From Pseudoalteromonas piscicida (GTDB lineage Bacteria > Pseudomonadota > Gammaproteobacteria > Enterobacterales > Alteromonadaceae): DNA of 64,000 nucleotides. The first letter of the stretch is position 1, and each line of letters starts with the position of its first letter. Both the position numbers and the translations under genes were made by a program. Of the stretch, positions 1 to 13,447 are shown piece by piece. The notes beneath the pieces were generated by a model that did not search any database, was not told the origin of the DNA, and saw nothing but the letters and a program-made list of their open reading frames with translations. The stretch lies in the NCBI RefSeq assembly GCF_000238315.3, contig NZ_CP011924.1, positions 3,245,001-3,309,000 on the forward strand, written 5' to 3'.

Positions 1-405
1 CTGCGCTTGCAATGTGACATCATGAGCAAAGCATTCATTGATCTTATCAATTTCAGAGGCAATAGTAAGCGCAACTTTTGCGTTGCAACTCTGAGCAACT
101 TTTGTAATTCGATCTACTTTGCTGCTTTTGCTTGGCTGGTATAGCGGTACCGCAATCACCCCAGCTGCCAAACAAGCGTAAAATGTCACAACATAGTCTA
201 AACCTGATGGGAAAAGTAGCAGTACACACTCACCAGGTGTTGCCTGTTGACGCACTTGTTCCGCTCTCACCTGCACAGCATGCCAAAGCTGAGAGTGTGT
301 CAAACTAACCGGAGATAGATCTTTATCATTCAAAAAACGAAATGCAACTTCGTTTGGTTTGGTTTGGCTATTTTTTTCTAAAAAATCAATAATCGTATAC
401 TTCAT
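1..405 (-). CDS. Fatty acyl-AMP ligase (FAAL) / NRPS-PKS loading domain, N-terminal part
   Basis: The ATG at 405 follows an AGAGG ribosome site, and 135 codons run off the left edge with no stop. The protein begins like the adenylate-forming FAAL family: an early FRFLND segment, then LLLFPSGLDYVVTFYACL and GVIAVPLYQP near residues 65-95, matching the N-terminal subdomain that in FAALs reads roughly LLLYPPGLDF...GVVAVPAYPP. FAALs activate a fatty acid as acyl-AMP and hand it to an acyl carrier protein, often as the first domain of a lipopeptide synthetase. It is the last visible gene of an operon with the VOC protein (9 bp gap), TolC and thioesterase genes. The ATP-binding motifs lie outside the window, so a stand-alone ligase and a large NRPS/PKS cannot be told apart. 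Confidence 0.8.
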   Translation of the reverse strand, partial: MKYTIIDFLEKNSQTKPNEVAFRFLNDKDLSPVSLTHSQLWHAVQVRAEQVRQQATPGECVLLLFPSGLDYVVTFYACLAAGVIAVPLYQPSKSSKVDRITKVAQSCNAKVALTIASEIDKINECFAHDVTLQAQ

Positions 406-414
406 GACAACCTC

Positions 415-906
415 TTAATACGCCCCGGCGCGCTCTAACTGTTCAAATAAGTTCTGAATACTGGTTTTTTCAAATTGTGACGTTTGCTGTTTCTTCTCGA
501 TAAATTCAAACATAGTTCCAGAGTTCTTATCTCTTAGTGTAAAGATCTGTTTTAGTTGGTCGCCAAAGATAACATCGGTAGAAAATGCCAGCCCGGCATC
601 AAGCAGGCGATATCGAGTTTCTTCCAGATTTTCCACTTCGATAGCAACATGTTGCACACCTGGGCCGTATTCATTCACAAAGCGTGATACCTGTGAGGCC
701 TCACTAGTTCCTTGCACTAAGACTATATTGAAACCGTTGCCACACAGCTCAGCAGCTAACATGCCAGAAAACTTACCTTCTACTTCGCGACGTTTTAGCA
801 ATTCGAAACCGAGTATCCCACAATAGAAGTCAACGGCTTGATCTAGGTCTCGGACTGCGATAGCAAGATGATCAATACGAGTCGTATGGTCTAATATGTA
901 TTTCAT
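415..906 (-). CDS. VOC (glyoxalase/HPPD-like) family protein
   Basis: 163 residues. The fold of the vicinal-oxygen-chelate superfamily is visible as two beta-alpha-beta-beta-beta modules: DHLAIAVRDLDQAVDFY near residue 12 and VQHVAIEVENLEETRYRL near residue 85. The probable metal ligands are the His in DHLA, the His in VQHV and the Glu in MFEFIEK, the 2-His-1-carboxylate pattern of HPPD-like and epimerase-like members. The closest resemblance by eye is to 4-hydroxyphenylpyruvate dioxygenase-like domains, but at half their length. It sits directly upstream of the FAAL gene with an AAGGA ribosome site, so a tailoring or precursor-supply role in the same pathway is inferred. The substrate cannot be told from sequence. 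Confidence 0.8.
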   Translation of the reverse strand: MKYILDHTTRIDHLAIAVRDLDQAVDFYCGILGFELLKRREVEGKFSGMLAAELCGNGFNIVLVQGTSEASQVSRFVNEYGPGVQHVAIEVENLEETRYRLLDAGLAFSTDVIFGDQLKQIFTLRDKNSGTMFEFIEKKQQTSQFEKTSIQNLFEQLERAGAY

Positions 907-1039
907 TGTTATTTTCCTTTTTCACACATACCGGCGTATAACTAGCTGCCAGTTAAACTAACGTGAGTTTTGATTTTCTTTGTTGAGTATCTTGCTGAAG
1001 TGGTAGATCACTTTAACAAGGGTTAATGTTATTTGTTGC

Positions 1040-2707
1040 CTAGTGGTGGTTATCCCCTAAGCGCTTCCAGCGGTATACCCAGTTAAAATGCACTGGTTCC
1101 TCACCCGTTGTGAAAGGTTCTCCCCAAGCAGTTGCGTTATAGGTTGAAACAAGCTCACTGTTGTCGCTGTGTAAGAAGGTAAACTTTCGGATATGGCCAA
1201 ATTTTAGTTCGTTCTCGCTCGTGCCAATTCGTGACATATGATCCAAACAGCTATCTAGCTCAGTCACTACAGCGCCATCTTTCTTATCACATTCAAAGCT
1301 AACCACATCACCTTCATTGGTAATAACCCAGAATCCACTAAAGCTAATTGGTCCGGCTTTAATATCAATTTCACCGTTATCTTTAAAATCAACATCAACG
1401 AGTGACAAGCCGTCTGTATTTTCTAGCTTAAAGCGTCCCGGCACCAATGAACTCGGCTCGACATAGCTGCTTGTCAAAAAATCATGACCATATGCTTCAT
1501 TTTTCTCATTGTAAAAAATTACACTCGACCCACCGAGTACAGAACCAGTAAAGCCCATACTCCACACTGCTCCAGAGTCTAACTTAACCTCCATTTCTTC
1601 ATCATTCTTATGATTCCAAGTAAAAGGTTGCTCATTATTCAGCGTCATACCACTTGGATCCGTAAAAGCAATTACTCCTGTGTTATCGCTATTAAAGATC
1701 ACCTCACTTCCCGCACCATCCGCTGAGTGCGCAAAACCAGCAGGTAGCTTCGAGTAATAAGTTTGACCAAAGTTAATGTCAATATCATCTCGAAGTGAAA
1801 CCGCTTCTGTAAACAACATAGTGTGGCGTTGCCCTGTAATAAATTCGGATAAATCGACCTGAGCTTCTGTTAAATCAGTAGGTAGGTTCAACTCGCGCTG
1901 CACAAGGTAATCAATAATATAACCAGCGTTAACCCCTTTTCTCAATTTCACATCACTAATGGTGGTTTTCACATCTAACAATCTGTCCGACTCTCCGGGA
2001 ATTTTGAACCACTGAGCTTGAGTGATAGTATCTTGATCCATTACTTGTAAAGAAAGTACGTGCCCTTCGGTTGAGAGGTCGCCAATAAACTTACCGTAGC
2101 GATGGCTCGATTGCGCACTAATTGGTAAGGTCACGATAATTTGATTTTCACTCAATGTTGTAATTAAAGGGTTATCAAAATTTCCTGATTGTTTAAAAAA
2201 GAGTTTGTTCCCTAATGCAGCCAAATCACCGAAGACTGTTCTAATCAGGGAAGTTTTAACCACTTCATCAACAACACCATCCAAATCATTATCTGACTTT
2301 ATTTCCCATTGCGCAGCGCCAAGCAGCTCTCCCGTTAGCGCAATTGATTTGCGCGCCGTTGTAGTACAGTACTCCAAAGGTACAATGGTACAACTACCAT
2401 CTATAATGTTAATAGTAATGATACCACTGTCGTCTAAGCTCCAATGAAACTTTTGACTATAGCCTTCAGACACATACATACCAGTTTTTAGCTGTGATTG
2501 TTGAACCAGTTGATTTGGAAATACACGGTTATAGTGACTCCCATGAAACTCTATTTTGAGATTCTCACTCTCCCATGCCCCAACAAGATCTAGTTCATTT
2601 TGCAAGCTGATTTCTTTTTTCTGTTGCGCGACTTGCTGCTCATCATAGTGCTCATCTGAGCAACCTAATAATGTTGCCAGCGCACACGTTAGCCAGATGT
2701 ATTTCAT
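1040..2707 (-). CDS. Secreted lipoprotein, function unknown
   Basis: 555 residues. It starts MKYIWLTCALATLLGCSDE: a short signal peptide ending in the lipobox LLGC, so Cys16 should be lipidated and the protein anchored to a membrane. The rest is polar, rich in beta-strand-like Gly/Asp/Thr stretches, with repeated phrases of the type DxxGxITI or NxTGVIAF (residues ~95, ~345, ~450) that suggest repeated beta modules. An aspartate-rich DNDLDGVVDE near residue 140 resembles calcium-binding loops. I do not recognise the family. It lies between the TolC and VOC genes in the same orientation, so it may be co-transcribed with the putative lipopeptide operon, but nothing ties its function to it. GGAG lies 10 bp upstream of the ATG. 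Confidence 0.75.
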   Translation of the reverse strand: MKYIWLTCALATLLGCSDEHYDEQQVAQQKKEISLQNELDLVGAWESENLKIEFHGSHYNRVFPNQLVQQSQLKTGMYVSEGYSQKFHWSLDDSGIITINIIDGSCTIVPLEYCTTTARKSIALTGELLGAAQWEIKSDNDLDGVVDEVVKTSLIRTVFGDLAALGNKLFFKQSGNFDNPLITTLSENQIIVTLPISAQSSHRYGKFIGDLSTEGHVLSLQVMDQDTITQAQWFKIPGESDRLLDVKTTISDVKLRKGVNAGYIIDYLVQRELNLPTDLTEAQVDLSEFITGQRHTMLFTEAVSLRDDIDINFGQTYYSKLPAGFAHSADGAGSEVIFNSDNTGVIAFTDPSGMTLNNEQPFTWNHKNDEEMEVKLDSGAVWSMGFTGSVLGGSSVIFYNEKNEAYGHDFLTSSYVEPSSLVPGRFKLENTDGLSLVDVDFKDNGEIDIKAGPISFSGFWVITNEGDVVSFECDKKDGAVVTELDSCLDHMSRIGTSENELKFGHIRKFTFLHSDNSELVSTYNATAWGEPFTTGEEPVHFNWVYRWKRLGDNHH

Positions 2708-2761
2708 TGTAGCGATTCTCCTAGTTATTTACTGCAAAGTTGCAGCTTATTTATTCCGTGA

Positions 2762-4129
2762 TTACTTGATATTGCTTTTATGTGCGATCTCACCGCCGAA
2801 TAAATTGCTAAAGTAACTAACTTCCTCAATAGTTAATTCACCAACAAGCTCCTTCAAAGCGACAAATCGTGCCATATAGTCATATTTATCTTGAATTAAA
2901 CTTAAGTTTTCTGATAACAGCTTTGCTCGGTTATCTAACACTCGCGAGAACGGCCCAACTCCAGTAAAGTACTCATCTTCAGCACTTTTCAAAGCAAGTT
3001 CAGCAGCTTTAACAGCTTCACCATTTGCCATAATTGAACTATGCATAGCATTTAACGTACTAAAGCTTGCAATTATTTGCTGCTTCACTTCATGACCCTT
3101 AAGCTGCTTTAAGTAACGTCTTTGCTCAACTGACAATTTCGCAGCCTCACTCGCAGAACTTGTTGCACCTCCACTATAAAGTGGCATTTCTAGATAAACA
3201 CCTGCGTTCCAGCCACGTCTCTCAAGTGAATCTGTAGCTTTATAGTTATACGTATTGTCATCATCATTGTCTGTGTAGCTCAAACGCCCCGTTACCGTCG
3301 GTAAATGCTTTGACTGTTGCGCTTTCAACTTTCGAGCTGCGACACTTTGATCCAACACAGCTAACTTATAATCAAGGTTTTTCTCGTACTTATTTTGTAA
3401 AGAAGCTAATTTTTGTTGAGGCTGATGTAAAACGGGCACTTCAGCTGTTAGTACTTGTATGGCACTTACTTCAGTTTGGGTTAATAGTGACAATTTCTCA
3501 AAGGCAATACTTAAGTCATTCTGTGCCAGTGCTTCCTGCGCTTTAACTTTTAACTGTTGAGATTCAGACTCTTTCACTTCGCTGATCTTAACCAGTCCAA
3601 AAGCATATCGACTGTTTATAATGTTATTCTGATCCGCGTAAGCACCTAACGTTTCCTGAATAAACAATAGCTTTTCTCGTGCTTTTACAACTTCAAAATA
3701 AGCAACCAAATAATCATTTGTGTAGTTAGATACGGCTTTTTGGAACCGAACTTTTGCTTGTATCGTATTGAGCTTACTTGCTTCGAAGTTATGATACGTA
3801 GATAGATCGAATAATAACTGGTCGACACTTAGCTCTACTTGTCGACTATCCGTTGTCGATTTTTGCTCTGCTTGATAACGTAGCAAATTATCACTTGAAG
3901 ACCAACTCTCTTGATCTGTATATCTTACATTAGCTGTTAGTTTTAAATTAGGTAGAAACTGCGCAAAAGATTGCTTTTCCCCCTCGATCCCCGCAAGGTA
4001 AGCTGATTGTTCAGCATTCACAGCTAAATTTTTTTCAGCTCCTTTTTGATAGAGATCGAGCAACAAATCTGCATGTGCCTCACTACACAAAGAAAAAGCA
4101 GTACATAGACATATTATTTTAAGTTTCAA
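2762..4129 (-). CDS. TolC-family outer membrane efflux protein
   Basis: The most likely start is the TTG at 4129, which follows GGAGG at 5 bp and gives a clean 20-residue signal peptide ending SEAHA; an in-frame ATG at 4159 would add ten residues and has no good ribosome site. The mature protein (~435 residues) has the TolC pattern: long amphipathic helices alternating with short beta segments, repeated halves (LPNLKLTANVRYTDQ near residue 55, LPTVTGRLSYTDND near residue 280), and GWNAGVYLEMPLYSGG before the second helical hairpin. TolC proteins form trimeric outer-membrane channels used by tripartite exporters. Possible partners are the exporter of the local operon or the MacAB-like system at 7100-9633. 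Length is typical for the family. Confidence 0.88.
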   Translation of the reverse strand: MKLKIICLCTAFSLCSEAHADLLLDLYQKGAEKNLAVNAEQSAYLAGIEGEKQSFAQFLPNLKLTANVRYTDQESWSSSDNLLRYQAEQKSTTDSRQVELSVDQLLFDLSTYHNFEASKLNTIQAKVRFQKAVSNYTNDYLVAYFEVVKAREKLLFIQETLGAYADQNNIINSRYAFGLVKISEVKESESQQLKVKAQEALAQNDLSIAFEKLSLLTQTEVSAIQVLTAEVPVLHQPQQKLASLQNKYEKNLDYKLAVLDQSVAARKLKAQQSKHLPTVTGRLSYTDNDDDNTYNYKATDSLERRGWNAGVYLEMPLYSGGATSSASEAAKLSVEQRRYLKQLKGHEVKQQIIASFSTLNAMHSSIMANGEAVKAAELALKSAEDEYFTGVGPFSRVLDNRAKLLSENLSLIQDKYDYMARFVALKELVGELTIEEVSYFSNLFGGEIAHKSNIK

Positions 4130-4230
4130 CGAAACCTCCAAAAACACCTTACATCTCACGAGTGAGACATTATTTTGAATTCAAAATGATGGTTAACTAC
4201 TCAGTAATAGCCTGATTGGCTACATTGGAA

Positions 4231-4992
4231 TTAACACACAGCCTCAACTTTTCGAGAGATAAAGGTTTCCTCGAAAAATGTATTTAGCTTATCGATAACT
4301 TGCGTTGAGTGAGTATCGATAAAAAAGTGCCCCCCTTCAAAAGCATGACAATCAAACTCAAGGAATAAATCGGCCCACATTTCAATTTCTTTCGTTGATA
4401 CCGCATCCTTTTTCCCATAAAACACTGTAACCGCAGAGGGAACCGTGGTTTTGCCTTGATATGAGTACTGCCCAGCTACTTTAAAATCGGCACGAAGCAT
4501 GGGTAAATATAGTTCCATAAGTTCACGATGCTCCAATATTTCCTTGGGTGTACCATTCATTTTCTCTAGCTCCAACATAAACTCTGGATCTGCATATTCA
4601 TAAACTCTATCTTTGAAACACTGTCGCTGAGGACCTGCACTACCTGATGCAAAAAAATGTTGTGGCGCTCTCAACCCAAGCGCTAATGCTCTTCGTGCAA
4701 CTTCGAAACCGATACGACTCCCCAAACTATGACCAAAAATCACATAATCATTAGATAACAGATGGCTAATGTTTGGAACAAGCCCATCAATCAACTCATC
4801 CATATTGTCTATTGGAGCCTTATCAAAGTGCGCTCCTCTTCCTGGTAGTTGAATAATATGCACTTCAACATGATCCGGCAATAATTTGGGCCAGGAACTA
4901 AACGAACCAGCGCTTCCTCCTGCGTAAGGAAAACATATTAGTTTAACAGTAGCCTTGGGTCTTGGACTTGGTGTTACATACCACTTATTCAT
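4231..4992 (-). CDS. Type II thioesterase of an NRPS/PKS cluster
   Basis: 253 residues, alpha/beta-hydrolase of the GrsT/SrfD family. The N-terminal VKLICFPYAGGSAGSF, the nucleophile elbow FGHSLGSRIG near residue 87 with the catalytic Ser, the acid in YGKKDAVS near residue 196 and the catalytic His in EGGHFFI near residue 223 form a complete triad. These enzymes remove wrong or stalled acyl groups from carrier-protein phosphopantetheine arms. A stand-alone TEII is strong evidence that the neighbouring operon makes a nonribosomal peptide or polyketide, in line with the FAAL at the left edge. A GGGAG ribosome site lies 7 bp before the ATG. Confidence 0.9.
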   Translation of the reverse strand: MNKWYVTPSPRPKATVKLICFPYAGGSAGSFSSWPKLLPDHVEVHIIQLPGRGAHFDKAPIDNMDELIDGLVPNISHLLSNDYVIFGHSLGSRIGFEVARRALALGLRAPQHFFASGSAGPQRQCFKDRVYEYADPEFMLELEKMNGTPKEILEHRELMELYLPMLRADFKVAGQYSYQGKTTVPSAVTVFYGKKDAVSTKEIEMWADLFLEFDCHAFEGGHFFIDTHSTQVIDKLNTFFEETFISRKVEAVC

Positions 4993-5022
4993 CTATATAC
5001 TCCCTAGAAACACCTTAAGCAT

Positions 5023-5259
5023 TTAATTAAGTTGCTGACTCAATTGCTCTAAATCCATCTCCAGTTGAAGGCTCACAGCTTGAGATTGTAAAAAGACGCC
5101 ATCTAAACCATCAACTTTGCCGCGAGAATAACCTTGCTCATATGCCCATTTAATAAGTTGTAATTCTTTGCTTGATAACGATTTCGCAATTGGCATGCTG
5201 CGCCCCTTAGTTTTGTTGTAGAGTTTTACGTATTGTTTTTCTTCTGCTTTATCGAACAT
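5023..5259 (-). CDS. Small hypothetical protein, first gene of the lipopeptide-like operon
   Basis: 78 residues. An AGAGGTG ribosome site and a gap of only 30 bp to the thioesterase start support translation and co-transcription. The protein is charged and probably helical: a Lys/Tyr-rich N-terminus (KAEEKQYVKLYNKTKGR), a middle with SSKELQLIKWAYEQGYSRGK, and a C-terminal helix rich in Gln/Leu. No signal peptide, no Cys. It is not an MbtH-like protein, since the conserved Trp/Asn pattern of that family is missing. I do not recognise it. Confidence 0.6.
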   Translation of the reverse strand: MFDKAEEKQYVKLYNKTKGRSMPIAKSLSSKELQLIKWAYEQGYSRGKVDGLDGVFLQSQAVSLQLEMDLEQLSQQLN

Positions 5260-5973
5260 TTCAGCTACACCTCTGCTTCATTACACAAATATAGTGAAGC
5301 TGTTAATTGAAATGCCTCACCGTTTCGACAACACAAACATTACAGCTAATTCAGCACTTTTGGTAATTATGAAATGTTATTAAATCTCGTAGAAGAAAAA
5401 ACATAAGATTTTGAATGTTATAGATATTTTTTGTTTTCTAAGAATCTAATGAAATAATAATTGCTGTAAAAGTGCTAGCTTTTGTACTAAAAACCTGTCC
5501 AAAGCCACGAATAGCGCGACTTTACGCTGAATTATGATAATTTATTCAATATTAGGCGTATTTATAAGCACCAAAAAATAGTGAGTAGTCATAGTTCAAA
5601 AAACCAAAAGAAATAAAAATATATCAATAAAATTCAAACGATTAGACTTAATACTTATTGGGAAATCAATTCTTATCACAAGCACCCAAGCAAAATGTCT
5701 AGCCAATTTTTGCTTTCAATTTTCAAAAAAAAATAATAATGGAAACTAAAAAAAGATGCTTTACACCAGTGAATAAATTTAGGTAGTAGCCTAACTAAAT
5801 CGGCTCTGCTACAATGAATCAAAATATTGGAGTCCTCATTCTTAGGTCCAAAGCAGATACGTAATACGCAATGCATACCAAGCTTGGTCTTGCAGTTGTC
5901 TTTTATGCGCTCAGTCTATCGCTACCAGACCTGTTGTATTCCACTTTTAATTACTTAATTGAGCATAATTTCA
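5260..5973. other. AT-rich intergenic region between divergent genes
   Basis: About 700 bp of very AT-rich DNA between the minus-strand operon ending upstream at 5259 and the plus-strand ParB-like gene. It should hold the promoters of both. I see no RNA gene, no clear operator and no convincing coding sequence; a 66-codon minus-strand frame at 5676-5876 has no ribosome site and a composition like the surrounding non-coding DNA. Confidence 0.5.
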
Positions 5974-7053
5974 ATGTCTGAAAAACTAGAACAACTTATT
6001 TTATCCAACGTGAACAATAAAGAGCTGTTTCACTCAGAGACATACGAATATCAATCGTTATTTCTCAGTTCAATCACCCCTGATGCGTCAAATGCTAGAT
6101 TTCTGCCATGTATTTTTTTGGAGGATGAACACGCCAAACAGTTTGTGACACGTAATATATCTAAAAATCAACTAAGTAAGATATATCAAGCTGAAGATCA
6201 TGTCTTGATAGGAAAATCCTGCATCATTAACTGCCTAAAATATGGTAGTCCAGAATGGAAGAAAGCGAACTCAACTATAGAATCAATTGTAGAGTTAGGT
6301 GAAAACATCGCAGTATCAGAAATGATCCAGGCGCCCACTGTATATCCAGTAGCAGACGGCAGATACCAAATTCTAACAGGCCACCGGCGATTCTTTGCTC
6401 TTGTTTTCGCATATGGTTTTGGCCATGTTGCACAATTTAAAGTCTACGAGAGGAAACCCCTACTAGCCAAGGTAAAACAGTTTCAAGAAAATGCCAGCCG
6501 AGAAGATCTGCCTCAATATGGAAAGCTTCAGGCATTTCTATCTGCGATGATGGAAATAGATACACTTGATCAAGCACGGCTGAAAGTAGGTGAAAAGAAG
6601 CTAACTGTAAGAGACAAAGCTAAAAACTTGGGTATCTCGATGGGTGCTTTTGATAATTACAATGTTCTTACAAGATACCCTGAAGTTATCAATGCTTACG
6701 AAAAAGGCTTATCTCACTCTTTCGTCAGTACAAAGAAAACCGTACTAAGCATCGAAAATGATTACAAAGAAAAACACCAAAAAACCCAATTAAATCTCAC
6801 AGATAGAAAGAGTATCGGTGAAGTAATAAAACAAAAGCTCACGGGGCAGAAACCGAGTTCAACCAAACCAAAAGCGTTCAACATTAAAGGAATTTCTTCT
6901 CCAGATGTGCTTAAAGCCCTATTGTTCACTGATGTTTCGACACTAGATACCCAGATAGATTGGGAACAATTGAACTGGCAAGACAGCCAAAGTGTCAATG
7001 ATGCCATCACGCAATTAATTAAGTGTATAAATTCACGAGAGATAAAAGAGTAA
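5974..7053 (+). CDS. ParB/RepB/Spo0J-family protein, orphan (no adjacent parA)
   Basis: 359 residues from the ATG at 5974; an in-frame TTG at 5959 lacks a ribosome site. The ParB N-terminal domain is recognisable: DGRYQILTGHRRFFALVFAYG at ~128-148 corresponds to the RYEIIAGERRWRAA box 2 of ParB, with GHRR in place of GERR, and FQENASREDLP at ~170-180 to IENIQREDLN. A helix-turn-helix-like stretch (VRDKAKNLGISMGAFDNYNV) follows at ~212-231. It lacks an obvious ParB dimerisation tail. It is clearly different from the chromosomal parB at 20994-21932. ParB proteins bind parS-like DNA and use CTP; orphan members can be regulators or plasmid/element remnants. No ParA gene is nearby, so a regulatory role or mobile-element origin is inferred. 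Confidence 0.75.
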   Translation: MSEKLEQLILSNVNNKELFHSETYEYQSLFLSSITPDASNARFLPCIFLEDEHAKQFVTRNISKNQLSKIYQAEDHVLIGKSCIINCLKYGSPEWKKANSTIESIVELGENIAVSEMIQAPTVYPVADGRYQILTGHRRFFALVFAYGFGHVAQFKVYERKPLLAKVKQFQENASREDLPQYGKLQAFLSAMMEIDTLDQARLKVGEKKLTVRDKAKNLGISMGAFDNYNVLTRYPEVINAYEKGLSHSFVSTKKTVLSIENDYKEKHQKTQLNLTDRKSIGEVIKQKLTGQKPSSTKPKAFNIKGISSPDVLKALLFTDVSTLDTQIDWEQLNWQDSQSVNDAITQLIKCINSREIKE

Positions 7054-7099: not shown

Positions 7100-8239
7100 T
7101 CAAAACTCTCGCTTTTGGTAGTAACCATAGCAACAAAAGGCAACAATACAGAGCCAAGCTAATGCAATGAAGCTTAGTATTGCAAAAATACTAAAGAGTA
7201 ACCAGCGACCATAATGTAGATCCAGCCCGAATAGTAATGTTATCAGTAACCAGCATATAATTAGGAAGTATATTCCCCAACGGGGATGGCAAGTTTTAAA
7301 AAAGTTTCTTACTGTCAAGTTTACAATTTTTTGGCACGAAGCCCCAGCCAACTTATGTGCAGCTACCTCAACCTTTTTATGAGCGATTAAGCTTAGTAAC
7401 ATATTCAAAATAGAAGCATAAGCTATCACCATTAACAATAATATACTCGGCTTTATTAAGTGCTCAAAAGTCTTTAGTTGGACATTTTTAGCTATATATT
7501 CCCAACCGTAGACCATTATTACCGCTATGCAACTCACGGTCACACTTTGTATTAGAAATACAATGTTAGCTATGCGGTTTTGCAGCACGGGATATGAATA
7601 CTTGGTAGCAAGTACACGAGAGTAATCAACAGACGCAGCAAGGATAGCTGGATAAGTGTTAGATATAAAAACAACTGAAAACATGATAAATAGTAAACAA
7701 CATATCGTTGAAACGGAGTAAGTTTGAATGGTCAGACCTAATGTAAAGACGCTAAAGTACAAAGCAAAGCATTCAATGAACACCAAAGAAACTAAACCAG
7801 CAAGAAATGTGAAAGGCACGCTCTCAAGTAAAAGCAAGCTAATGAAATCTACTTGACTCGCTCCCAAGATTTTTCGGATGGTCATTTCTCTAGCTCTTGA
7901 CTTAACGTACACCAAATTTGTACAGAGAGAGTTTAACAATATAACTATCAATACTACACCACTGAAGCCTACGCCTAATAGTTGAAATATAAAAACTTCT
8001 GTAGACTGAGTAATCAAAATTGAAAGTGTAATTACTGTAAAGCCCATAACGAGACATACGAAGTTAAATATAAAATAGCCAATCGTAAACGGCTTGAAGA
8101 TACGTGAGGTGATCGATGCACTTTCCAACTTACTGCTTCCTATTGCCATGCTTAAGTTAAGGCATAATTCTTTGCTTTCCTGAGCATTGACAACGGTTCC
8201 TTGTGCCATGAAAAATGTGTTTATCGAAGAACGAAACAC
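7100..8239 (-). CDS. Compact FtsX/MacB-like ABC transporter permease
   Basis: 379 residues from a GTG start 10 bp after the ATPase stop codon. Two FtsX-type halves are visible. The first has a membrane segment at ~50-75, another at ~90-110 and the cytoplasmic signature SRAREMTIRKILGAS. The second has IANIVFLIQSVTVSCIAVIM, a further segment and HKKVEVAAHKLAGAS, then two C-terminal segments. The large periplasmic MacB_PCD domains usually lying after the first helix of each half (total near 800 residues in related permeases) are missing. It should pair with the ATPase at 8250 and the adaptor at 9064 to export a peptide, probably the products of 9724-10400. Very hydrophobic with little soluble domain. 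Confidence 0.82.
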   Translation of the reverse strand: MFRSSINTFFMAQGTVVNAQESKELCLNLSMAIGSSKLESASITSRIFKPFTIGYFIFNFVCLVMGFTVITLSILITQSTEVFIFQLLGVGFSGVVLIVILLNSLCTNLVYVKSRAREMTIRKILGASQVDFISLLLLESVPFTFLAGLVSLVFIECFALYFSVFTLGLTIQTYSVSTICCLLFIMFSVVFISNTYPAILAASVDYSRVLATKYSYPVLQNRIANIVFLIQSVTVSCIAVIMVYGWEYIAKNVQLKTFEHLIKPSILLLMVIAYASILNMLLSLIAHKKVEVAAHKLAGASCQKIVNLTVRNFFKTCHPRWGIYFLIICWLLITLLFGLDLHYGRWLLFSIFAILSFIALAWLCIVAFCCYGYYQKREF

Positions 8240-8249
8240 AAACTACGTG

Positions 8250-8951
8250 TTATGCGACTCCTGGTAATGTATTTACATTATTGATATCTAACATAACTTG
8301 GCCATCGAGCAATCGTATTTTCCGACTAGCAAAATCACTTTCACTTTCAGAATGAGTGACCATGATAATAGTTGCACCTGCACGATTGCATGCTTGCAAC
8401 ATCTGCAAAATTTCTGTGCTATTGTTAGAATCTAAATTCCCTGTGGGCTCATCGGCTAAGATCACTTTAGGTTCAGTAACTAGTGCCCTTGCAATCGCAA
8501 CCCTTTGTTGTTGTCCACCGGATAACTGGGTAGGTAAATGCCCAGCTCGATGGTTCATACCAACACGCTTTAGTACTGCTTCAACTTTTTCTTTTCTTAG
8601 TGCAACAGGAGTGTTTTGATAAAGTAGCGGCAGTTCTACATTTTCATATACGCTTAACTCGTCAATCAAATTGAAACTCTGGAAAATAAAACCAACTGAA
8701 CCTCTTCTTAATTCAGCTAACTGCCTTTCATTGTATTCAATGATATTATGGCCAAAGAAGCGTATCTTCCCAGAAGTTGGTTTATCAAGCATCCCCAAAA
8801 TAGACAATAGGGTTGATTTGCCGCATCCAGATGGCCCCATTATGGCTAGAAACTCTCCTTGATTGATGTGTAAGCTCACCTCGTGTAGCGCCGTTGTTTC
8901 AAGCAATCCAGATTGAAACTTCCGACCTAAATTCTCAAGTTCAATCGTCAC
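8250..8951 (-). CDS. ABC transporter ATP-binding protein (MacB/LolD-like)
   Basis: 233 residues from the GTG at 8951, which follows GGAGG at 7 bp; a longer frame to 9023 lacks a ribosome site and adds residues not found in the family. All motifs are present: Walker A GPSGCGKST at ~39-47, Q-loop IFQSFNLIDEL at ~89-99, signature LSGGQQQRVAIARAL at ~143-157, Walker B VILADEPTGNLDS at ~163-175 and the switch His in MVTHSE. This is the ATPase class that powers FtsX-type permeases in MacAB-like mechanotransmission exporters and Lol-type systems. It lies in one operon with the permease (downstream) and adaptor (upstream). No C39 peptidase domain is fused to it. Confidence 0.93.
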   Translation of the reverse strand: MTIELENLGRKFQSGLLETTALHEVSLHINQGEFLAIMGPSGCGKSTLLSILGMLDKPTSGKIRFFGHNIIEYNERQLAELRRGSVGFIFQSFNLIDELSVYENVELPLLYQNTPVALRKEKVEAVLKRVGMNHRAGHLPTQLSGGQQQRVAIARALVTEPKVILADEPTGNLDSNNSTEILQMLQACNRAGATIIMVTHSESESDFASRKIRLLDGQVMLDINNVNTLPGVA

Positions 8952-9063
8952 TTTTTTGCCTCCATTTTGTCGTTTCAAATTGTAAGCGATGTGCTCATAA
9001 CAATGTAAAAACATGGTTGACACCTACTGCACCTAACAAGTAACTTTATAGATTACTGTAAAT

Positions 9064-9633
9064 TCACTTACGTTCCGCAATATTGATTCCACGAGATTTT
9101 ATGCAATCCGCTTTATCAAAATAAAAATTAACTTCTTGCTGAGGATCGAGCCCAAGCAACTGGCTATTATAAGAGGGCAGTTCAAATGTCGTGAGCAAAT
9201 GCTCTCCTGTAAACTTAGTCACAGTGAGTTCAACTTCTTCATTATTCAAGCAAAGCCAAAATGATCCATCAATCTGTGTTTGATTATACTGTGCCATATG
9301 AAGATCGACGACTGCCAATACTTTAGAACTAGAGATAATTGAAACCAAAGATCCTACTTTTACCTCTTTATTCAATTCATCATTCCCCATGATAAATTTT
9401 ACAAACCCATCTTCTTGCGCTCTCACATCCTTAGTTTGCGCTCCATGACCTGATTGATATTTTAATAATGTTTGCCCCTCTTCCACACGCTCTCCTGGCT
9501 TCACAGGAAACTCAACAACTAAAGCGTCTTCTTGAAAGTAATAAAATACCTCCGCTGGTTTTGTGACTTGAATATTCCCTATCAAATGTGATGCTGTAAG
9601 CATCAATAGCGGTGCCAAACTAATGGAACTCAA
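9064..9633 (-). CDS. Truncated-looking HlyD/MacA-like periplasmic adaptor
   Basis: 189 residues from a TTG start with AAGGAG at 6 bp. An N-terminal hydrophobic stretch (ISLAPLLMLTASHLIG) is a signal or anchor. Residues ~40-100 look like the biotinyl-lipoyl half-motifs of membrane fusion proteins (VEFPVKPGERVEEGQTLLKY, then RAQEDGFVKFIMGN and VKVGSLVSIIS), followed by a beta-barrel-like C-terminus. The long alpha-helical hairpin that contacts TolC in MacA/HlyD is missing, since the two lipoyl halves are almost adjacent. The gene lies between the precursor peptides and the ATPase in the same orientation, so it is probably the periplasmic part of this exporter. Adaptors of normal length have 350-400 residues. 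Confidence 0.7.
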   Translation of the reverse strand: MSSISLAPLLMLTASHLIGNIQVTKPAEVFYYFQEDALVVEFPVKPGERVEEGQTLLKYQSGHGAQTKDVRAQEDGFVKFIMGNDELNKEVKVGSLVSIISSSKVLAVVDLHMAQYNQTQIDGSFWLCLNNEEVELTVTKFTGEHLLTTFELPSYNSQLLGLDPQQEVNFYFDKADCIKSRGINIAERK

Positions 9634-9723
9634 TACGTTCTCCTTGATGTTAAGATAAAATAGTGACTTACTTTTCCTACCTGTTCAGGTTCCAGTTCCT
9701 TTGTGTTGCTGAATAACTGATGG

Positions 9724-9906
9724 TTAACCTGTTGTGTAGCTTGTAAAATCATGTGTAATTGCTTCATTCGTGCCTTCTTCAGCACCGTTATTTTCCTGAG
9801 GTGGATAAAGTTCAGCCCCACCTGCAATCTTACGGGTGTGAAGAAGTTCAATACCTTTGGCATTTGAAAGCTTTTTTAGTTGTTTCTTTTTTAGTGTTAG
9901 CAACAT
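9724..9906 (-). CDS. Gly-Gly-leader precursor peptide, copy 3 (RiPP/bacteriocin-like)
   Basis: 60 residues with AGGA 8 bp before the ATG. The Lys/Leu-rich leader MLLTLKKKQLKKLSNAKGIE runs to IAGG at residues 27-30, a typical double-glycine processing site. The putative core (31-60) is acidic and Thr-rich: AELYPPQENNGAEEGTNEAI then THDFTSYTTG. No Cys is present. It differs from the other two copies only at residue 16 (Ala for Thr) and residue 54 (Phe for Tyr). The leader style resembles natural-product precursors of Pseudoalteromonas and Bacteroidetes. It precedes the exporter genes in the same orientation and is probably their cargo. Confidence 0.82.
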   Translation of the reverse strand: MLLTLKKKQLKKLSNAKGIELLHTRKIAGGAELYPPQENNGAEEGTNEAITHDFTSYTTG

Positions 9907-9970
9907 GATGTTATTCCTGCGTTTTATTTCGTTATTATGTTTTTATACTTTTTATTCTGTTGCTCGATTA

Positions 9971-10153
9971 TCAGCCTGTTGTGTAGCTTGTATAATCATG
10001 GGTAATTGCTTCATTCGTGCCTTCTTCAGCACCGTTATTTTCCTGGGGTGGATAAAGTTCAGCCCCGCCTGCAATCTTACGAGTGTGAAGAAGTTCAATA
10101 CCTTTGGTATTTGAAAGCTTTTTTAGTTGTTTCTTTTTTAGTGTTAGCAACAT
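9971..10153 (-). CDS. Gly-Gly-leader precursor peptide, copy 2
   Basis: 60 residues, identical in protein sequence to copy 1 (10218-10400). It has the same ribosome site and a 64-bp spacer to the next copy. Leader residues 1-30 end in KIAGG; core residues 31-60 contain Tyr34-Pro-Pro, a Glu cluster (38, 43, 44, 48), Asp53 and six Thr/Ser. DNA differences from copy 1 are few and at least one is synonymous (GCA against GCT at Ala49), showing that the protein, not just the DNA, is kept. Confidence 0.85.
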   Translation of the reverse strand: MLLTLKKKQLKKLSNTKGIELLHTRKIAGGAELYPPQENNGAEEGTNEAITHDYTSYTTG

Positions 10154-10217
10154 GATGTTATTCCTGCGTTTTATTTTGTTATTATGTTTTTATACTTTTT
10201 ATTCTGTTGCTCGATTA

Positions 10218-10400
10218 TCAGCCTGTTGTGTAGCTTGTATAATCATGGGTAATAGCTTCATTCGTGCCTTCTTCAGCACCGTTATTTTCCTGGGGTGGAT
10301 AAAGTTCAGCCCCGCCTGCAATCTTACGAGTGTGAAGAAGTTCAATACCTTTGGTATTTGAAAGCTTTTTAAGTTGTTTCTTTTTTAGTGTTAACAGCAT
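10218..10400 (-). CDS. Gly-Gly-leader precursor peptide, copy 1 (promoter-proximal)
   Basis: 60 residues. Two in-frame ATGs exist (10406 and 10400); AAGGA is 2 bp from the first and 8 bp from the second, so 10400 is chosen, which also matches the start of the other two copies. Same leader (KIAGG at 26-30) and 30-residue core as copy 2. The upstream region differs from the spacers between copies and so should hold the promoter of the whole peptide-exporter operon. No maturation enzyme or leader peptidase is encoded nearby, so the final product is unknown: it could be a graspetide-like ester peptide, another RiPP, or an unmodified cleaved peptide. Confidence 0.85.
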   Translation of the reverse strand: MLLTLKKKQLKKLSNTKGIELLHTRKIAGGAELYPPQENNGAEEGTNEAITHDYTSYTTG

Positions 10401-10707
10401 CGTCATTTTCCTTAGCTTCTTGTTGTATTTATTTTTTAGTTTTTATGTTTACACCTGTAATGACTGAATCATCTGGGTGCCTAATTACAATAGCTAAGAG
10501 GCATGAAAATTAGTAATTATCAAAGCTTATTTTTGACATAAGATTCCTCTGTAATACTTTGAATTTAAAGGTTTTAAAAAACATTCGGAACAGATATCAT
10601 ACTGGTAATGTTTAAAACCGCGGTTAATTGATAAAATGACCTAAAAGTGGAGCCAAAACCTATAAAAATTGCTGCCTATTTAGCTATTTGATCTGAAGTC
10701 CAGCAGA

Positions 10708-10836
10708 TTAGTTAGCTCCGCTCATTGTAAATGTGGAAGTAGACTGAGCTTTGGTGACGGATTCCTCACATGCTAACGATGTTAAAGCCGTTTCTAATCG
10801 CTCGTCATTAAGTACAAAAATTCGCCATTCCGACAA
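10708..10836 (-). CDS. Possible small ORF or gene remnant, 42 codons
   Basis: A frame from a TTG at 10836 (AGGAAG about 9 bp upstream) to a TAA at 10708. The product begins MSEWRIFVLNDERLETALTS and ends TFTMSGAN, with a natural-looking amino-acid composition and one Cys. The frame stays open upstream for about ten more codons without an ATG. It may be a small protein, a further diverged peptide gene or the tail of a lost gene; I do not recognise it. Confidence 0.2.
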   Translation of the reverse strand: MSEWRIFVLNDERLETALTSLACEESVTKAQSTSTFTMSGAN

Positions 10837-11033
10837 GAAGTAAATACTTCCTTTCAGAGAAAGTAGAAGAGAGCGTGAAGTTATTTACAACTGATGGGCT
10901 TAACGGAGAAAAGTATAGGTTTAACTGAAGCTATATATATTATGCTTATGGTATTAGGTAACCTGAGCTTCAGATATTAATACCTTTCAAGCGACCAGTT
11001 TCAGTGCTAATTGCGTTGAATTCACTCCCAATA

Positions 11034-11137
11034 ATAGCCAGAGATTGGTGCGTAGATTCGCCTTATCTATGAGGGAGTAGGTAGTAGAATGGTGACAGAG
11101 CTCGAGCGTGGATATATCCCCAACACTCTCTGGCTAT
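11034..11137. repeat. Perfect 11-bp inverted repeat bounding ~104 bp
   Basis: ATAGCCAGAGA at 11034-11044 and its exact complement TCTCTGGCTAT at 11127-11137, with weaker matching continuing inwards. No flanking target-site duplication is obvious. It could be a small non-autonomous element, a remnant of one, or a long hairpin. Confidence 0.35.
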
Positions 11138-11320
11138 CCAAAGAAGTTTTTAAAACAATGGGTTAGTTAACCCCTTATCCAAACTTCAGCTTTATTAGGC
11201 TACAACCGATAAAAGTTCTAGAGGGCTAAATTTTATTAATGGCAACATCCCGCATACTATGCACATAAAGGTATTTTACTGAATTGCCAATACCCGCTTA
11301 ATTAATCAAGATTATTGCCA

Positions 11321-13447
11321 CTAGTGCTCTGCAGGCTCTTCATATTTAAGTTGAAATAAGTGGTTATTGATCGGTTTAATTACGTCAACGAGCAGCTTCC
11401 CTTCATGAAACTCTATTCCTTTAATCGTGCCTTGGCTTGGCAAGGTAAATATCAATTTGGTACTTTGTTTGGACTGGTAATCGATTTGGTAAATATTGTA
11501 TCCATCTGTGTGATATATCATATTCCCCGCAACGGTTAATTTGTGTTTACTAAATGCCTTTGATAGCGGGATTTTAGCAATTGACTCACCAATATTACGA
11601 TCAAAAACTTCCACTTTGTCTTTAGTTGATAAAGAAACATATAGATCTTTGCTAATAGATGATAACCATAAAGCATCTTGAACGGGCAATGTCGAAACGA
11701 GGTCGCTTGCCTTTGAGTAAATAAACGCTTTATTTTTTGACTTATTCTCCGTTACATACGCAATATCACCATTATGTAAAAATTCCGCCGATATAACTCT
11801 CCCTGAAGTTTGAATACTTTCTTCTAACTTCCAACTTTGAGTATTATAGACTTCTAGGCGATCTTGAAACTTCAACAATATTTCATCAAAGCCTTTTCGA
11901 GTTTCCACATCAAATGGCTCTTCGACAGAAAGGCGGCTCGCAACAACTGCGCCTTCAAGATCCAACTCAAACAATGTTGACTTACCATTCTCCACAGCAA
12001 CAGCGAAATATCCATTTTCTTTCGGTGAAGAAGATCTGTGGTAGGCTATTTCTTTTTTCAGCTCCGTAAAAGTTAAGCTTTCAATATCAAGTTCGTTTAA
12101 TTGGTGTAAATATGGATAACCCACCACAAGCATATTTTTCCAGTCAATAGATTGATAGCTGGAGTAGCGACTTTCCCCTAAAACTTGGATCGTATTAACC
12201 AGCTGTTTCGAGGTCAAAGAGTATTCATAAATCTTCTTTTCAAAAGGCTGCATCCAAATTAATGTATTTCTGGAACTATCATAATTTGCAGACCAAATTC
12301 GGCTCTTTGATTCATACAGCTTTACAAGGTTTCCACCTTCGGCGCCTGTCATATACAATTCAGAGTACCCTAATTGACGACGTTCAAAAAATACGCTATC
12401 GAGTGCCTCAGAGTAATGTAAAAAATGGTCACCATGTGAATTGATATTTGGAGAAGTTATTTGAAATTCTTCGCCGGTGAGTAAATTTCGGTTTACCAAT
12501 GCCGATAGCTCGTCCCTATTTCGATAGTTGCTTTTTGTGTAAATAAATGAGTTTTCTCCAACACCTGTACCGAATGTAATACGCAATTCGCAATCAAATA
12601 ACGGACTATTACTTGAACTAAAATCTCGACTTATTCTCCATACTTTACAACTTTTATTGGCAACATCGATTACTCGATAAAACAAGGAAGAGCTATCTGA
12701 TGCCCATCCCATTGGAAAGTAATGAAACTTCGCTTCTCCAACGCGCTGCTCTTTACCATCTCTTAAATCTTTAACAACCAAGTAACTTTTATCTTGTCCT
12801 TCAGGAATAAAAGAAAACGCTGCATAATTTTTATCTGGAGATAAAAGTAAAATATTGTACTGACCATCCATCCAGGATAAAGCCTGTTCTTCATAGTGCT
12901 TATTGTTAAACTCAGGTATGGCCTGTTGCTTATTCTCTTCTGATGCTGAATAAAAATATCCGAACCCCACAAGGCAGATCAAGACAAAACTAAAAATCGA
13001 TGCGAAAGCAAACTTTGAGTTTTTAGGCTTAAGCGGATCAGTTTCTATAACTAATGGAACTTCGGTCTTAGTAGCTGATGCCTCATAAACATCACTTTCT
13101 TCATGATAAATAACAATGGGCTCAACAAAGAAGCTGTAACCCTTACGATAGTGAGTTTTAACTATAGTTCCTTTTTGCCTATCTGACTTGAGTACTTTAC
13201 GAAGCTCAGACATTGCTCTGTTAATAGCATTATCGTCAACGTAATTCTGTCTCCAAACATCATCAATTAAATCCTGCCGAGTGATGATCTGATCGCAGTT
13301 AATTGCCAAGTAACAAAGGATATTGAATAAAAGAGGTTCTAATTCACGCTCGACTTCCCCATCGGATATGCATTGACGTCGCGGATCTAGTGTCCACTCG
13401 CCAAACTTCACTTCTTTTACCTTTCTGGGAAAATTTACTTCATTCAT
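11321..13447 (-). CDS. CadC-like membrane-anchored winged-helix regulator with beta-propeller-like sensor
   Basis: 708 residues. Residues ~10-108 form an OmpR/CadC-type DNA-binding domain: KFGEWTLDPRRQCI, then ELEPLLFNILCYLAINCDQI, VDDNAINRAMSELRKVL and the wing IVKTHYRKGYSFFV. A single membrane segment lies at ~145-167. The periplasmic part (170-708) is made of repeating beta segments with TolB/WD-like phrases (LSPDKNYAAFSF, GWASDSSSLFYRV, WSANYDSSRNTLIWM), which suggests a beta-propeller. Such one-component regulators sense a periplasmic signal and bind promoters directly. Lying just upstream of the peptide/exporter operon in the same orientation, it is a candidate controller of this region; that is inference. 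Confidence 0.85.
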   Translation of the reverse strand: MNEVNFPRKVKEVKFGEWTLDPRRQCISDGEVERELEPLLFNILCYLAINCDQIITRQDLIDDVWRQNYVDDNAINRAMSELRKVLKSDRQKGTIVKTHYRKGYSFFVEPIVIYHEESDVYEASATKTEVPLVIETDPLKPKNSKFAFASIFSFVLICLVGFGYFYSASEENKQQAIPEFNNKHYEEQALSWMDGQYNILLLSPDKNYAAFSFIPEGQDKSYLVVKDLRDGKEQRVGEAKFHYFPMGWASDSSSLFYRVIDVANKSCKVWRISRDFSSSNSPLFDCELRITFGTGVGENSFIYTKSNYRNRDELSALVNRNLLTGEEFQITSPNINSHGDHFLHYSEALDSVFFERRQLGYSELYMTGAEGGNLVKLYESKSRIWSANYDSSRNTLIWMQPFEKKIYEYSLTSKQLVNTIQVLGESRYSSYQSIDWKNMLVVGYPYLHQLNELDIESLTFTELKKEIAYHRSSSPKENGYFAVAVENGKSTLFELDLEGAVVASRLSVEEPFDVETRKGFDEILLKFQDRLEVYNTQSWKLEESIQTSGRVISAEFLHNGDIAYVTENKSKNKAFIYSKASDLVSTLPVQDALWLSSISKDLYVSLSTKDKVEVFDRNIGESIAKIPLSKAFSKHKLTVAGNMIYHTDGYNIYQIDYQSKQSTKLIFTLPSQGTIKGIEFHEGKLLVDVIKPINNHLFQLKYEEPAEH

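Follow-up and report, generated by a model that had tools for sequence, protein, structure and literature searches.

Tandem cysteine-free peptide genes with a class I lanthipeptide-type leader beside a CadC-like regulator in Pseudoalteromonas piscicida

Three nearly identical small genes stand in tandem beside a membrane-bound regulator in P. piscicida, and the question is which machinery handles their products and what these products might do. The stretch of 64,000 nucleotides analysed here (the window) had been described in an initial annotation as carrying three tandem 60-codon genes at a 247-bp period, with double-glycine leaders and without a recognisable maturase. The spacing is exactly 247 bp and all three genes are on the minus strand: gene A at 9724..9906 (60 codons; open reading frame, codon comparison, leader homology), gene B at 9971..10153 (60 codons; open reading frame, homologue search, whole-genome search, codon comparison) and gene C at 10218..10406, which starts at 10400 (60 codons) or at 10406 (62 codons; open reading frame, codon comparison). 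An AGGA or AAGGA element was found just 5′ of each gene, in agreement with the proposal that each has its own ribosome site, and the leader ends in IAGG in all three. Gene A encodes the leader MLLTLKKKQLKKLSNAKGIELLHTRKIAGG followed by a Cys-free core. The core AELYPPQENNGAEEGTNEAITHDYTSYTTG contains five Thr, one Ser, five Glu and one Asp and no Cys, Lys or Arg, so that the description of an acidic, Thr-rich core of 30 residues without Cys holds. As reported, residues 16 and 54 set peptide A apart from B and C. B and C are indeed identical in protein, but the single synonymous difference claimed between them is really four silent bases (codons 2, 3, 10 and 49). Between A and B, two replacement and six silent positions were counted, including the stop codon.

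When gene B was compared with the two copies of a related genome (G098), the 30 leader codons showed 14 silent against 2 and 4 replacement codons, and the last 12 codons showed 7 and 5 silent against no replacement codons. These counts show coding constraint on the leader and on the C-terminal ITHDYTSYTTG, with drift in the middle part of the core; the peptide genes are real and under purifying selection. Copy number varies, with three copies in the window's genome (G000), one in G083 and two in G098, and in one species (G080) a transposase-like ORF takes the place of the peptides, as might be expected if the genes were decaying, functionless relics of lanthipeptide genes that have lost their Cys. 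The strong excess of silent changes in leader and C-terminus and the retention of tandem copies in several species speak against decay, which we regard as highly improbable.

The family is poorly visible to standard searches. The peptide alone as homologue query found only two relatives, and a scan of genome contigs one locus; the family surfaced only through whole-genome and alignment searches. NCBIfam gave no match for the three window copies and Pfam none for the two copies searched, and every name listed for 44 relatives was "hypothetical" or "uncharacterized". The claim of an undescribed RiPP-type precursor family with a double-glycine leader is thus borne out as far as database family names go, and homologues with a conserved leader do exist in other species. 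In the titles and abstract openings among the literature matches listed, which cover few subscription journals, a Cys-free subfamily coupled to CadC is not described. Upstream of the peptide genes, a stretch of 914 bp (10407..11320, minus strand) in which no gene was called separates them from the regulator and presumably holds their promoter. Rfam gave no match in 9600-11330 at E 0.1, promoter-like sites in the 914 bp were no commoner than in shuffled sequences, and the terminator scan likewise stayed at chance level.

The leader proved the most informative part. When an HMM was trained on 11 Cys-bearing leaders and nothing else, it matched the window copies at 3e-10 to 1.5e-9. Alignment with hhalign of peptides encoded at CadC loci (CadC-linked) against Cys-bearing ones gave a probability of 98.7 (E 2.7e-16) with only the leader aligned, the inputs being 26 and 22 rows that we selected from 71 and 47 distinct peptides, respectively. 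With the co-occurrence given below, these results place the window leader in a class I LanB-associated leader family. In the window's own genome the leader search gave 23 matches at E ≤1, of which 22 were below 1e-3, so that the three window copies, which are included in these numbers, share their leader with about 20 other precursors. Known leader families were matched only faintly: the Cys-bearing alignment hit Bacteroid_pep (5/22), TIGR04149 (2/22), lant_leader_L1b (2/22) and L1a (1/22), all weakly (best E 0.0012), and the mostly Cys-free CadC-linked alignment hit two weak, unrelated NCBIfam families in 3/26 rows at most. Double-glycine leaders have hydrophobic residues at -4, -7 and -12 before the GG, according to the accessible part of one report (PMC10885120). 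The window leader ends in GG and has Ile at -4 and -12 and Thr at -7, as do most leaders of both alignments at that last position. The strict motif LxLxKx5L is present in the window copies, in 3/26 aligned CadC-linked leaders and in 13/22 Cys-bearing ones. As far as the available text of Walker et al. 2020 goes (PMC7268733), class I LanA leaders in Bacteroidetes combine LxLxKx5L and a GG end with a C39 protease, and the motif, the GG end and a C39 exporter all recur in the window system. Those leaders belong to lanthipeptide precursors of Bacteroidetes, whereas the window system is that of a gammaproteobacterium and its cores are Cys-free.

The initial annotation had proposed searching the leader across Pseudoalteromonas for genes that co-occur with it, and LanB does. 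Among 108 genomes of the genus, LanB was present in 48/50 leader-positive ones (leader match at E of 1 or less) and in 3/58 others. Conversely, a leader match was found in 48/51 LanB-positive and 2/57 LanB-negative genomes (Fisher 1.8e-24, n=108), and the two leader genomes that lack LanB have leader E values of only 0.71 and 0.76. A strong C39 match, for which we set the threshold at more than 100 bits, tracked the leader less sharply (48/50 against 17/58), and LanC exceeded its cut-off in 50/108 genomes. We also sampled 394 genomes of the order, of which 10 matched the CadC-linked alignment, two of them from Pseudoalteromonas. Three genomes outside the genus (G360, G444 and G203) have clear leader matches, each with LanB no more than 2 kb away. 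Five others (G173, G222, G291, G312 and G399) have weak matches (E 0.005-0.007), which we treated as chance; LanB was absent in both genomes tested among these five.

Where, then, is the machinery of the window's genome? That no maturase can be recognised is true of the first 13.5 kb but not of the genome, as a LanB/LanC/C39/HlyD set of class I lanthipeptide type is located about 59-64 kb away, downstream and on the same strand; its position beyond the window edge explains why it went unseen, and the suggestion that the enzymes are encoded elsewhere was correct. The single C39 peptidase match of the genome is at G000:C1:3194077-3194460, on the strand of the peptide genes. It belongs to a block of HlyD, C39-ABC, LanC and LanB that adjoins glmU and has a Cys-bearing precursor on the opposite strand (block coordinates are those of fetched locus L051 plus 3185000). 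Measured from peptide A, HlyD is nearest (58.9 kb), followed by LanC (62.7 kb) and LanB (64.0 kb). In a domain search both the N- and the C-terminal Lant_dehydr domains of LanB were complete. LanC has WCYG and CHG motifs and the C39 domain has the ECG cysteine and a histidine, which we take to be the functional signature residues of these proteins.

In relatives the two parts are directly linked. In six species (G009, G011, G032, G085, G104 and G007), genes for the CadC-like regulator, the peptides, a small lipoyl-like protein (sMFP), GlmU, HlyD, C39, LanC and LanB stand on one strand in a contiguous block of about 13-18 kb (for G104, LanB comes from the genome-wide LanB search and the rest from fetched loci). 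A LuxR-type gene precedes glmU in some of these, and atpC adjoins CadC in four of the six. In G034 and G016, LanB and peptides share one fetched stretch in a different arrangement. It is therefore very likely, on homology, co-occurrence and linkage, that the peptides use this leader and C39 pathway. More than ten fetched loci have a second C39 exporter, accompanied by HlyD, next to the peptides, and the leader could for that reason be shared because of export alone. The peptides might accordingly be unmodified double-glycine peptides that need only a C39 exporter, with LanB and LanC acting on the Cys-bearing precursors alone, which would have the leader in common with them by way of that exporter. 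We give this reading appreciable weight while leaning against it: besides the second exporter pairs, the 60/71 CadC-linked precursors with a Cys-free core fit it well, but the leader follows LanB more sharply than it follows C39, and the high Thr content of the CadC-linked cores described below would not be expected.

The cores indeed fall into two types. Cys is lacking in all three window copies but is present in the core of all 17 precursors extracted from the same genome (out of 20 non-window leader precursors). Genus-wide, 11/71 distinct CadC-linked cores contain Cys compared to 46/47 others (Fisher 5e-21), counts that include one copy in G083 (L022) moved by hand to the CadC-linked group, its locus being outside the CadC set, and that leave out duplicates, peptides without a GG-like site and those with a leader E above 0.5 (among them that of G106). 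Thr makes up 19.6% of residues in CadC-linked cores and 10.0% in the others, as calculated before L022 was re-sorted. At least one Cys-free CadC-linked peptide was found in 33/36 genomes that have peptides at the CadC locus, and in the other three (G042, G045 and G075) all CadC-linked peptides are Cys-bearing. Outside the genus, the one precursor extracted from the three genomes with a clear leader match, that of G203, has Cys, and loss of Cys is thus established for Pseudoalteromonas only. The CadC-linked peptides therefore form a mostly Cys-free, Thr-rich class with a lanthipeptide leader that probably uses the same exporter. Their cores are often short and in tandem, with four copies in G009, five in G010 and six in G031, and in several species they start with NTDTVT or TNTDTIT. 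The window's ITHDYTSYTTG is at best a divergent version of this motif, and we do not claim homology of the cores. Single cores with three NTDTVT motifs, as if three peptides had been fused, were seen in G026, G033 and G104 (L128 at 10321 and 12067, L135 at 925, L138 at 6671). In the window's genome, a Cys-bearing GG precursor has been duplicated together with a neighbouring gene of 153 aa (L026, 8178-9524).

We did not file the window peptides as lanthipeptides, because their core lacks the Cys needed for lanthionine or methyllanthionine. A peptide that has no Cys cannot close a lanthionine ring on itself, and the product would hence be linear. LanB may nevertheless act on the Cys-free cores: the Thr enrichment and the tight association with LanB speak for it, and a shared exporter could explain both. 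The evidence for such action consists of co-occurrence and linkage, and we consider dehydration by LanB about an even chance.

The Thr/Ser- and Glu/Asp-rich core had also led to the suggestion of graspetide-like ester or amide cross-links, which found no support: TIGR04187, the one model with which ATP-grasp proteins of the window's genome were searched, matches nothing there at E 1e-10. Matches to it occur in 27/108 Pseudoalteromonas genomes, every one below the family's own cut-off, including one each, elsewhere in the genome, in G083 and G098, which are the closest relatives to have these peptides. MvdC/MvdD-like ATP-grasp genes do share an island with a second C39-HlyD pair and further GG precursors in G107, G061, G016 and G001 (L054 14032-14955; L134 409-1329; L146 7639-8556; L147 16823 onward; the gene of G107 was scanned, and those of G061, G016 and G001 are 66-72% identical to it). 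The called precursors nearest to these genes in G107 and G061 carry Cys and are not CadC-linked; the nearest one in G016 (L146 4604) lacks Cys and is not CadC-linked either. With no TIGR04187 match in the window's genome, a graspetide or other ester- or amide-cross-linked peptide is highly improbable. It seems that a single genomic island, close to the atp operon in several species, houses several kinds of RiPP chemistry. A class III lanthionine synthetase, LanKC, was also seen near the CadC-peptide unit in G094, G053 and G061 (L133, L136 and L139); NF038151 scored above its cut-off for L133, the one LanKC scanned.

The constant partners of the peptides are a regulator and the small, adaptor-like sMFP, and they bear on function. 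The CadC/ToxR-like membrane regulator of 708 aa (11321..13447, minus strand; PF00486 4.3e-15, PF02897 1.4e-5, hydropathy) has a winged-helix DNA-binding domain (35-106), one hydrophobic segment near 147-165 and a beta-propeller-like C-terminal part; the atp operon lies upstream, beyond the regulator. On the other side of the peptides is sMFP, a lipoyl/barrel-sandwich-like protein of 189 aa with conserved C128 and C177 (9064..9633, minus strand), which is probably periplasmic. A profile of 21 sMFP members matched a lipoyl domain (7b9k, 4e-10) and a membrane-fusion protein (5xu0, 1.2e-4) in the PDB, and at least two Cys were found in sMFP of all 40 units compared. As a homologue query, sMFP found two proteins, one of them the query. 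A structure model of sMFP made from three sequences was discarded (mean pLDDT 42).

CadC matches were found in 64/108 genomes at E 1e-40, and we read the loci of 41 of these 64, choosing mostly strong matches. Peptides were present in 36/37 LanB-positive and 0/4 LanB-negative genomes fetched, so that the cassette pairs the candidate receptor and signal genes across species. The lone exception is G080, where the transposase-like ORF mentioned above (recognised by eye; L122 13180-13569) replaces the peptide genes while CadC, sMFP and LanB are kept. No such peptide was found at the CadC loci of the LanB-negative G017, G067, G090 and G020; G017 is a weak negative since its stretch ends at the contig end just past CadC, and glmU follows CadC as the next large gene in G067, G090 and G020, with CadC of G020 split over two ORFs. 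Distances among sMFPs correlate with those of the periplasmic part of CadC (Spearman 0.75) more than with those of its DNA-binding part (0.38; 40 units), values in which two sMFPs are counted twice and in which the short, conserved DNA-binding domain itself lowers the correlation. The nearest CadC and the nearest sMFP were in one and the same unit in only 26/40 cases. Five genomes have two sMFP-bearing units, with within-genome identities of 36-41% for CadC and 20-23% for sMFP, and for each CadC of these another genome has a counterpart of 60-95% identity. These data support the view that CadC and sMFP work as partners, and gene order together with the distance correlation points to possible sensing of the peptide by CadC.

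The constancy of the CadC-like regulator and sMFP makes a regulatory peptide the most likely role, and the pairing with a membrane-bound regulator suggests exported signals. The main functional rival is a toxin: an antimicrobial peptide, the production of which is controlled by CadC, with self-protection by sMFP and an ABC-FtsX pair. Downstream of sMFP the window has a MacB-type ABC ATPase (8250..9023, minus strand; PF00005) and an FtsX-type permease (7100..8239, minus strand; PF02687 7.7e-10), and an ABC 63-64% identical to this ATPase follows the LanKC-type genes of the three relatives named above, both of which would fit such protection. In the 20 kb fetched from G098 the pair was not seen, and FtsX-like genes were found in only 3/42 fetched loci; the pair is therefore an optional part and not a constant partner. 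Moreover, the acidic core of the window peptides does not resemble cationic bacteriocins. We regard the antimicrobial reading as unlikely and slightly favour a signal over a toxin. The ABC-FtsX pair had also been considered as the exporter, a candidate that was dropped, since the G098 stretch keeps two peptide genes without it.

Taken as a whole, the best explanation, to which we incline somewhat, is a linear regulatory peptide for CadC and sMFP that is addressed by a lanthipeptide leader and exported by C39. In such a scheme the class I lanthipeptide-type double-glycine leader would direct the precursors to the single LanB-LanC-C39-HlyD set of the genome, LanB may dehydrate some Thr or Ser of the core, and the C39 peptidase-exporter would cut after Gly-Gly and export the 30-residue core, which would then be sensed in the periplasm by the CadC/sMFP pair; the tandem copies would raise the peptide dose. 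A more detailed version, a Gram-negative signal system that draws on lanthipeptide machinery and in which the Cys-free, Thr-rich peptides (with NTDTVT-type cores in several species) are dehydrated by LanB, left uncyclised, exported by C39 and sensed by the beta-propeller CadC with its lipoyl co-component, perhaps controlling the roughly 20 scattered precursors, is speculative and rather improbable in full.

Parts of this scheme resemble known systems. According to the accessible portions of the reports (PMC12819058, PMC9993889), class I lanthipeptides of the genus include pseudorosins A-C of P. flavipulchra S16 (dehydratase PsfB) and PciA of P. citrea DSM 8771. They share genus and class I type with the window system; being described as lanthipeptides they need Cys, which the window peptides lack, a comparison made with their description in those portions. 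PciA has been expressed heterologously in E. coli (PMC9993889). For prochlorosins and cyanotins, the parts of the literature at hand (PMC7268733, PMC12328550) describe one LanM with many precursors, many encoded far away and some without Cys, and the window's genome similarly combines a single enzyme set with some 20 scattered precursors that have one leader type and of which a minority is Cys-free. Prochlorosins and cyanotins, as described there, depend on a class II LanM, whereas the window's genome has LanB and LanC, with its Cys-free members in one recurrent locus with a regulator. ToxR/ToxS and VtrA/VtrC, as presented in the available text (PMC9214523), are co-component signal systems, and the window may resemble them in having a membrane-bound regulator next to a gene whose product may act together with the periplasmic domain of that regulator. 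In contrast to what is presented there, the window partner is a lipoyl-type protein and the putatively exported peptides are encoded between the partners.

CadC-linked precursors were found in 36/41 Pseudoalteromonas genomes with a CadC locus read; they have a lanthipeptide leader, and an intra-peptide lanthionine is impossible in the Cys-free cores. Such precursors would probably escape gene-cluster searches in which Cys and a neighbouring synthetase are required. The arrangement of one LanB and about 20 precursors in the window's genome is a class I counterpart of the prochlorosins. Should LanB act on the cores, a full-length class I dehydratase would yield linear dehydrobutyrine peptides; should CadC sense them, a one-component membrane receptor would be responding to an exported RiPP signal.

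Other genes of the neighbourhood were recorded as well. Between the peptides and the lanthipeptide machinery are very large NRPS-like genes (G000:C1 about 3201000-3245000, reaching window positions 1-5259; L043, L044 and L051), together on the minus strand with an AMP-ligase-like gene, a type II thioesterase and TolC; dioxygenase-like genes and an RND-type pump belong to the same region. Most genes of this region were named by eye, those beyond the window from their translations. The arrangement is similar in G098. The TolC-family outer-membrane channel (2762..4159, minus strand; PF02321, TIGR01844 below cut-off) is a possible exit duct for the peptides, or it may be part of the adjoining nonribosomal peptide cluster. 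A ParB-domain-like gene is located at 5959-7053 on the plus strand of the window, and its relatives in G093, G007 and G051, with 58-59% identity, are neighbours of CadC units.
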